Assembly (NCBI GenBank): GCA_022414725.1 | Contig: CM039465.1 | Span: 26,006,018-26,070,017, forward strand | Reading direction: 5' to 3' | Source: Microglena sp. YARC | Taxonomy: Eukaryota; Chlorophyta; Chlorophyceae; Chlamydomonadales; Chlamydomonadaceae | DNA length: 64,000 bases | Shown: piece after piece, positions 2,800 through 20,359 of the stretch | Position numbering within the stretch: position 1 is the stretch's first letter | How the letters are laid out: each line of letters starts with the position of its first letter | Program-made: the position numbers and the translations under genes | The notes under the pieces: generated by a model | Told to the model about the DNA's origin: nothing | Databases searched by the model: none | What the model saw: the letters and a program-made list of their open reading frames with translations, nothing else

Positions 2800-5700
2800 A
2801 TGAGGCTGGGCATCAGAAACGGCCTTCGTCTCATCTCCCTCTGCAAACCTCGCCGGTCAATCTTGCAAGTCAGCTGCTCCACTGATGCACCCCCTCTAGC
2901 CACTGCCAATAGGCCCATGGAGGGTAGCAGCAGCTTCTCCTCTCAAACAGAAGCTGCAACATCAGGGAGGGAGAAGCTGGTGTGCTTTTCTGCATGTCAC
3001 CATGTAGTACCCCTCCCAGAGGGCCACAGATTTCCAAGTGCGCTCAATCCTTATTTTGTGTGCTTTTGTGCTGAATTAAGCCCGTGTGTGTTATGTGTTG
3101 TGTTTTTAATGTGCTTTTTGTTGTATTGAAGTTTGTTGTGCAATGTAAATTTTGTTATGTTTTACTGTATTTTGCATGTCACCATGTAGTGCCCCTCCCA
3201 GAGGGCCACAGATTTTTCAAGTGCGCTCAATCCTGTTTAATGTGCTTTGGTGTTTAATTTGAAGCCTGTGGGTGCTATGCGTTGTCTTTCTAATGTGCTT
3301 TTTCTTGTATTTAAGCCTGTATGTGCGCTCAAGCCTTTTTTATGTGCTTAGGTGGTTAATTGGGTTAATTGCCTGTGGGTGTAATGTGTTGTGTTTTTAA
3401 TGTGCTTTTTTGTTGTTTTTACACCTGTGTGTTCTGTGTTGTGTTTTTAATGTGCTTTTGTAGGCTGTGGGGGGCAACTTCTAACCAAAATGACCCCATC
3501 GTCCAACTTAGTAGAGGTCATAGAGATGATGAAGAATCCGGTTTTATTTCTTGATTTGGCCCAGTAGAAAAACAGTAATGGTCCTTCTAAGGTTGGGGCC
3601 GCGGGGGAGGCGGAGGGAGGGGGGGCGAGGGAAAAATCTGACATTTTCAAAACATTATGTGCTTTTTTTCTAGCCCTCAGAATGACATGGGGGGGGAACT
3701 AAGGTGTTCCTCTACTAAATACCAGTCCATATATGCTATTGAGGGAGAGACCCAACACATATTTTGCCCAGGGCAGAGGGGGGGGGGGGGGGGGGCCCGA
3801 GGGGTGAGGTGGGGTGGGGTGGGGGGGGGGGGGTCCAGGGTCTCTCTCTCTCTCTCTCTCTCTCTCTCTCTCTCTCTCTCTCTCTCTCTCTCTCTCTCTC
3901 TCTCTCTCAACTCAAGACAACTCACCACACCACAGCATACCATACCCTAGCCAAGCCAAGCCAAGCATAAGCTTCATGTACCCCCTTTACCTCATCAGTG
4001 TTGAAGTATGCGGCAACTAGAGAGAACTTGGCAACCGACGGCAGCCTCGCTGATAAAATTGACCTACGCCAGGGGCCCGTAGCTCAAATGAGAGATTTGG
4101 TTTTGGCGCATGATGAGGTAAGTCTCGGCACTTTCTTATTTTTGTAGTCCCAGTGCATGTCACCCTTGTAAATGCATTCGGTTATACATATTTTTTGTAG
4201 TCGTTCATATGTACACCTACGCCAGGGGCCCATAGCTCAAATGAGAGATTTGTTTTTGGCGCATGATGAGGTGGGTCTCAGCACTGTTTCTGTTTTCAGT
4301 CCCAGTGCATGTCACCCTTTTTGTAGTCCCAATGCATGTCACCCTGACTGCATTCTGTACTTATAGTTTTTTTTTACTTGTGTGTATACCTACGCCAGGG
4401 GCCTATAGTTCACATGAGAGATTTGATTTCCGCACATGACGAGGTGGGTCTCAGCACTTCTATATTTTCGAGTCCCGGTGCATGTCACCCTTGTAAATGC
4501 ATTCTGCACTATGTATTTTGTTGTAGTTGTGCATATACCTACGCCAGGGGCCTATAGTTCACATGAGAGATTTGATTTCCGCACATGACGAGGTGGGTCT
4601 CAGCACCTTTTTATTTGTGTGGTCCCAGTGCATGCCACCCTTGTTATTGCACTCTGTACTACGCATTTTTTGTAGTTGTTCATATGTATACCTACGCCAG
4701 GGGCCCATAGCTGACATGAGAGATTTTGTTTTGGCGCATCATGAGTTGGGTCAAAGCACTTTTTGTTTAGTCCCAGTGCATTTCACCCTTTTGATCGCTT
4801 TATGTACTAAAGTGTTGTAGTGGTGTGTATACCACTTATTTACTCCGGACATAGCCCAGGGGCCCATAGCTCACATGAGAGATCTGGTTCTGGCGCATCA
4901 TGAGGTGGGTCTCAGCACTGCATATTTTTTTTGTCCCAGGACATGTCACCCTTTGTTCGAGTCCCTGCGCATGTCACCCTTTTTTGAGTCCCAGTGCATG
5001 TCGCCCTTGTGACTGCATACTGTACAACGTTTTTTTTACTTTTGCGCATACCTACGCCACGGGCCTACAGTTCACACGAGAGATTTATTTTGTAGTCCCA
5101 GTGCATGTCACCCTTGTAAAAACAAATTGTAGTTGTTCATATGTATACCTACGCCAGGGGCCCATACTTCACATGTGAGATTTGATTTTGCGCACGAGGA
5201 GGTCTCAGTCCATGTCAGAGCTTTTTTGTTGGAGGATTACTAGGTGCTTTTGTACTGCTAGGGGGCAGGAGCCCTGTACTGCCCAAGTAGCAGTCCATGT
5301 CAGAGCCTTTTGTTGGAGCATTACTAGGTGCTTTTGTACTGCTAGGGGGCAGGAGCCCTGTACTGCCCAAGTGGCAGTCCATGTCAGAGCCTTTTGTTGG
5401 AGCATTACTAGGTGCTTTTGTACTGCTAGGGGGCAGGGGCCCTGTACTGCCCAAGTAGCAGCCCCTTCTAAGCCATCCACGTGGTGGTTACGTAACTGAA
5501 AATGAATTCGTGTAAACTTGAAGTAACTTCTACTTCTCCCCTGCCTTATAGACAGTCGCAAAAAAATATTTCAAGCTACCAGCAGCAGCTTATAGGCAGC
5601 TATCCTGGCTTGCTACCCAGCCAAACCTATGTCAACGTAGTTCTAGAAGCTGGCAGAATCATATTTCCAGTACTATTGAAATCTAGGAGCTTAGCCCAGT

Positions 5701-20359: not shown

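Follow-up and report, generated by a model that had tools for sequence, protein, structure and literature searches.

How does an algal gene come to have introns that repeat the edges of their own exons, and how do such introns grow? The question is raised by a deacetylase gene of Microglena sp. YARC, which lies on the forward strand at 2800-20359 of the 64-kb stretch of DNA analysed as a whole (the window). We rebuilt this gene from the window as nine exons that splice into an open frame of 371 codons plus a stop codon (Table 1). The sole Pfam match of a 349-residue version with a short exon 1 was to histone deacetylase, and the named species among the best protein matches were Volvox africanus, Astrephomene, Chlamydomonas schloesseri and C. 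eustigma, placing the genome in the Chlamydomonadales. The short exon 1 (ending at 2979, with exon 2 starting at 4007) was dropped, as a public gene model, P0001 (EukProt), and the homologues indicate the longer form.

The P0001 protein is identical to the rebuilt deacetylase through exons 1 to 7 and into exon 8; thus, the outermost sites of introns 1 to 7 are those used in P0001. Exon 9 is read in a different frame by this model, so that residues kept by homologues are lost. We have taken the departure at exons 8 and 9 (18053-20359) as a probable prediction error next to the 18-bp donor array, and edge arrays may more generally mislead gene prediction, as perhaps in P0001 beside this one. Use of the outermost sites is suggested by the open frame, by homology and by this one predicted model.

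Table 1. Exons of the deacetylase gene and edge copies within its introns (positions in the window)
Feature	Positions	Strand	Remarks
Exon 1	2800..3037	+	open-frame gene model; exon end matches P0001
Copy of exon 1 end + donor	3170..3240	+	exon-end equivalent 3220; GT kept; ~50 exon bases
Exon 2	3999..4117	+	open-frame gene model
Six copies of exon 2 end + donor	4215..5203	+	~56 exon bases each, 73-84% identity; 5 of 6 also in junction-word search
Exon 3	7626..7706	+	open-frame gene model
Five copies of exon 3 end + donor	7829..8375	+	31-38 exon bases
Exon 4	9978..10096	+	open-frame gene model
Six copies of exon 4 end + donor	10205..10671	+	in part a 60-bp array
Short copy of acceptor + first exon 5 bases	11093..11121	+	exon-start equivalent 11113; exact word
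Exon 5	11317..11422	+	open-frame gene model
Six copies of acceptor + exon 6 start	11853..13244	+	amid CCCACA-type minisatellites
Exon 6	13358..13418	+	open-frame gene model
31-bp array, ~41 units	13419..14677	+	unit resembles last 12-15 bases of exon 6 + donor
Eleven copies of acceptor + exon 7 start	14842..16624	+	spacing 125-226 bp
Exon 7	16708..16888	+	open-frame gene model
Copy of exon 7 end + donor	17092..17175	+	looser and junction-word searches
Copies of acceptor + exon 8 start	17475..17988	+	13-64 exon bases
Exon 8	18053..18160	+	open-frame gene model
18-bp array	18161..18538	+	last 9 bases of exon 8 + GTGAGT
Three copies of acceptor + exon 9 start	19864..20174	+	29 exon bases; 2 of 3 also in junction-word search; AG lost near 20149
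Exon 9, including stop codon	20257..20359	+	open-frame gene model

The sequence-only reading held that every intron of this gene contains copies of its own exon edges in direct orientation. This proved to be so: copies were found in all eight introns and at 12 of the 16 junctions, comprising seven of the eight donors (introns 1, 2, 3, 4, 6, 7 and 8) and five of the eight acceptors (introns 4 to 8). All of the junctions that had been named (donors 1, 2, 3, 4, 7 and 8; acceptors 4 to 8) were recovered, and donor 6 is additional. Among the 16 junctions searched, edge copies were absent at donor 5 and at acceptors 1, 2 and 3. Eleven of the 12 junctions derive from the edge-copy survey, the short copy at acceptor 4 having been added by exact-word match; the weak spots of the count are donors 6 and 8, which are minisatellites with just 9-15 exon bases.

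Intron 1 has the lightest copy load, a single copy, and intron 6 the heaviest, with eleven acceptor copies together with the array of about 41 31-bp units. One copy in intron 6 (15189-15324) matches 136 exon 7 bases with 4 mismatches, closer than its neighbouring copies, and would reflect either a recent duplication or gene conversion. The repeat units straddle donors or acceptors, and the edge copies sit within introns, between exons common to homologues. It had also been claimed that the coding sequence was spread mainly by this copying, which is a fair description but not a total one. If each array is taken to run from the intron edge to where its last copy ends, sequence between copies included, the arrays span 8806 of the 16444 bases of the 8 introns (54%), and much of the remaining intron sequence consists of other arrays and simple repeats. 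Two near-identical arrays internal to introns, at 6284-7455 (78 bp x 15, 97%) and 8851-9612 (36 bp x 21, 99%), are apparently younger than most edge arrays. A 255-bp tandem repeat also lies right after the stop codon (20376-21056).

The edge-copy pattern is real, and it is present in all three other gene groups that were sampled from Pfam families in the same genome. The deacetylase sample consisted of 22 exon matches (cores) at 11 loci, four of the 26 matches having been set aside: two lie in the window and two (L012) are copies in their own right. The chaperonin Cpn60/TCP1 sample comprised 38 of 64 matches, in seven genes, including one match (C5:39358262) that is a copy in its own right. 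For the proteasome, 20 of 23 matches fell in ten chosen loci and one of these lay outside the sequence stretch, leaving 19 cores. Outside the window, edge positions are the ends of HMM matches, standing in for junctions. Edge copies were found for 38 of the 79 cores (28 loci): 16/22 for the other deacetylases, 16/38 for the chaperonins and 6/19 for the proteasome. By class, 128 copies lie upstream and carry the exon start, and 123 lie downstream and carry the exon end, a single proteasome exon (L043) supplying 38 of the latter. Exceptions to this direction rule amounted to 7 copies of other class, 4 inverted and 4 inside a core (chaperonin set).

A set of 46 introns, eight of them from this gene, was hand-chosen from neighbouring matches with abutting model positions and scored by a looser match rule than that of the 79-core survey. 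Edge copies were present in 30, and the arrays span 31806 of 65431 bases (49%). The proposal that introns grow by tandem units straddling splice sites is in part supported, in that direct, tandem, splice-site-spanning units also occur in other genes and their arrays span about half of intron length, both in this gene and in the set of 46. Median intron length was 1470 bases with edge arrays versus 761 without; once the array span is subtracted, the array-bearing introns are the shorter, with a median of 450 versus 761 bases. Edge copying is not universal, as the 30 of 46 introns make plain, and there is very little in some genes: loci L009, L033 and L034 gave 0/4, 0/4 and 0/5 edges respectively, the looser rule adding three matches in one L034 intron.

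Two further observations were made during this survey. On the minus strand of the window, an open frame at 36587-36137 has a partial GATA-finger match below the Pfam cut-off, and 227 bp upstream lies a duplicate of what appear to be the frame's exon start and acceptor region; this is possibly a second gene of the window showing the same edge-copy pattern. Separately, a chaperonin match at G000:C6:13962293-13963762 (minus strand) covers model positions 1-488 of 490 in one open stretch, unlike the split matches, and may represent an organelle-type gene or a contaminant.

We next consider whether splice edges are a preferred target. Segments of 32 bases with sufficient complexity were scored for a direct copy at most 3.5 kb away; for the deacetylases, the comparison used six of the eleven loci, those with at least two cores of one gene. 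In this gene, 8/15 edge segments had a copy versus 352/524 from intron interiors. The corresponding values were 13/21 versus 480/774 in the deacetylases, 16/53 versus 543/1561 in the chaperonins and 0/15 versus 176/530 in the proteasome genes (Fisher p = 0.004), where avoidance of edges, not neutrality, may be at work. The expectation that edges would be copied more than random duplication allows thus failed, and with a pooled odds ratio of 0.65 the edges are not special. Exon midpoints had a copy in 1/9 (this gene), 2/17 (deacetylases), 5/36 (chaperonins) and 0/19 (proteasome) cases. Copies do enter exons, a point against the reading favoured below: 54 of 167 exon-interior segments of this gene have one.

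Sequence beyond the introns was scored in the same way. Stretches of the window outside the deacetylase gene had copies in 23/199, 161/1060 and 50/670 segments, and a SET/MYND gene in the window had local copies in 0/387. This latter region (44713-48702, plus strand) contains TPR, SET and MYND domains in adjoining frames; within its gap at about 46.3-47.6 kb is a minus-strand frame that by eye resembles reverse transcriptase. The flanks of the sampled genes gave 407/956 for the deacetylases and 381/1044 for the proteasome (315 of these in L043), and eight random 4-kb stretches, the first eight of 20 drawn, had copy shares from 0.00 to 0.67. Flanks, stretches outside the studied genes and random stretches having copies as well, the duplication process is not confined to introns.

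These results bear on a directed mechanism, in which arrays would start from breaks or template switches at junctions (provoked, for instance, by co-transcriptional splicing or by R-loops) and edges would be true hot spots. Such a mechanism would be in keeping with copies at 12 of the 16 junctions of this gene, with the shallowness of the exon parts (median 50 bases) and with the published observation, as far as the available text describes it, that in C. reinhardtii and Volvox the density of tandem repeats rises towards the ends of introns (PMC3887541). However, the edge rate is equal to or below the intron-interior rate in four of four gene sets, and over 64 sides the nearest copy contains anything from 9 to 182 exon bases, so that the duplicated stretches do not stop at the junction. 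We therefore regard direction to splice edges as unlikely. The exon share of the unit is nonetheless shallower than uniform, with a median of 0.41 of the possible maximum (KS p = 1e-4, 64 sides), which implies that a blind process alone is insufficient without added selection; extra selection against long exon pieces, or weak anchoring, may lie behind it. A nucleosome-sized unit, considered in view of a median edge spacing of 153 bp, was dropped, as spacing across all segments is broad.

The reading that we favour, at a probability of roughly 0.75, is that intron growth is driven by recurrent local tandem duplication that is blind to splice sites and is seen through a selective filter. The sampled parts of the genome hold many local direct repeats, mostly 30-250 bp apart, both in introns and outside the studied genes. 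A tandem duplication across a donor would create two donors and, provided that the first one is used, leave the mRNA unchanged. An acceptor would behave as the mirror case: if the last acceptor is used the same mRNA results, making the duplication nearly neutral. Duplications within an exon, or spanning a whole exon, would alter the protein and be purged. Repetition of this process would lay donor copies rightwards of the exon 3' end and acceptor copies leftwards of the 5' end, after which the copies would drift while the real edge stays under constraint. Straddling duplication, hidden from the mRNA provided that splicing still uses the outermost site, would offer a simple, transposon-free route to longer introns.

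The outermost-site rule predicts that donor copies come before acceptor copies within an intron. This held in 14/14 introns with copies from both ends, in each of which all donor copies precede the acceptor copies. Intron 4 of the deacetylase gene, which is not among the 14, also fits the order (donor copies at 10252-10668 before the acceptor copy at 11113). A pseudo-exon under exon definition requires an acceptor and then a donor, so the copies give none; the pseudo-exons proposed by the sequence-only reading find no internal acceptor-donor pair among the copies of these 14 introns. The copies are instead decoy sites, which could extend an existing exon but would not form exons of their own.

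How the cell chooses the correct splice site among arrays of near-copies is of interest in itself, as such arrays are natural tests of spliceosome choice. According to the available text of a transcriptome-wide study, splicing prefers the sites that lie nearest across the exon where flanking introns are long, although for 3' sites exon definition weakens the preference for upstream sites and does not clearly reverse it (PMC9225289). Exon definition would explain site choice, in agreement with the open frame and with P0001 over introns 1 to 7. Array-bearing introns are long, as exon definition would require, but the arrays themselves lengthen introns, so that their length may be effect as much as cause. 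A more far-reaching version of splice-blind duplication can be entertained, albeit with considerable doubt. Exon edges might act as permanent seeds, being the sole constrained parts and renewed by straddling duplications, such that introns grow inward from both ends and genes come to rely on exon definition, some introns carrying tens of intact decoys. If this were true, the alga would be a natural experiment in splice-site choice repeated over its genes.

The state of the copies was compared with what drift would produce. As had been noticed from the sequence, the copies usually keep GT or AG, with 37 of 42 scored copies doing so; this count leaves aside the arrays at donors 6 and 8 as well as two degenerate copies. 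Adding the latter (near 5203, with GT kept as judged by eye, and near 20149, with AG lost) gives 38/44. Approximately 0.76 is expected from nearby divergence for the 37/42, and retention at or above expectation implies that selection is not eliminating the decoys. Between the real edge and its copies, 133/1316 positions (0.101) of the exon part and 121/751 (0.161) of the intron part are different, and the copies differ from each other by 0.149 and 0.183 respectively. This is the pattern that a constrained real edge accompanied by freely drifting copies would give.

The same retention could be taken to mean that the copies are functional, serving as alternative or recursive splice sites or as spare sites under selection. 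Furthermore, the acceptors of exons 4, 7 and 9 read AG and then GT across the junction and are possible ratchet points for recursive splicing. Yet GT/AG retention is only a little above expectation, with copies that are not independent of one another; the copies diverge among themselves in the exon part almost as quickly as in the intron part, and their number and position vary between introns. Function for the copies is thus improbable.

The matches exceed chance, and their specificity points to a local origin. In a junction-word search allowing at most 27% mismatch, 10 of the 16 deacetylase junctions were matched again, in their own intron only, and none of the 16 words was matched elsewhere in the window or on the minus strand. 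A looser search produced two minus-strand matches, of the exon 5 edge to 17692-17631 and of the exon 8 edge to 35513-35445, both resembling simple repeats. The control set of 66 cores from this gene, the other deacetylases and the chaperonins (18 loci) gave 247 direct and 4 inverted matches within their own loci and none in loci of the other gene family (deacetylase or chaperonin). In the 79-core survey, the matches at further loci within a family (31 for the deacetylases, 45 for the chaperonins and 2 for the proteasome) are presumed to be paralogous exons. Direct nearby copies, few inverted and none in other-family loci, are the marks of local tandem duplication of minisatellite type. Insertion of a mobile element or introner carrying splice sites, which repeated intron units bearing splice sites resemble at first sight, is very improbable given the zero matches in other-family loci (two families) and elsewhere in the window. 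False duplication in the assembly, conceivable in a region so rich in repeats, is scarcely credible, as the copies in this gene show about 5-28% divergence from the real edge across most matches and lie in ordered arrays, and the same pattern recurs on several contigs.

Introners are dispersed, mobile elements in which the repeated unit carries splice signals and which bring about mass change of intron content. The arrays described here are similar in that the repeated unit bears splice signals and intron content is changed en masse. They differ in being local: the units matched no other-family locus, and in the two families and the 64-kb window no similar unit was found at many unrelated genes.

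Within the open-licence literature, our searches brought up no account of introns growing, across gene families, through arrays that bear splice edges. Precedents exist for the component parts, as the available texts of three studies indicate (PMC4974935, PMC3887541, PMC2812944). In potato, a tandem duplication across an intron-exon boundary made a new intron (PMC4974935; reviewed in PMC3443670). The likeness lies in the boundary-crossing unit and in splice signals inherited from the parent junction. As described there, however, one duplication creates a new intron, whereas here the copies lengthen an existing intron, and new introns were not observed. Tandem repeats of C. reinhardtii and Volvox carteri are reported to reach their highest density in introns and to become denser close to intron-exon junctions; the available text treats motifs by position, without mention of units composed of edge plus splice site (PMC3887541). 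Finally, internal tandem repeats at exon-intron boundaries have been described in human genes of segmental duplications, with 27 intron modifications (PMC2812944). These boundary minisatellites likewise lengthen exons or introns, and they alter splicing in the human genes. In the account given, those 27 modifications concern recently duplicated primate genes, whereas in Microglena 30 of the 46 introns sampled have edge copies, with about half of the intron length spanned by arrays.
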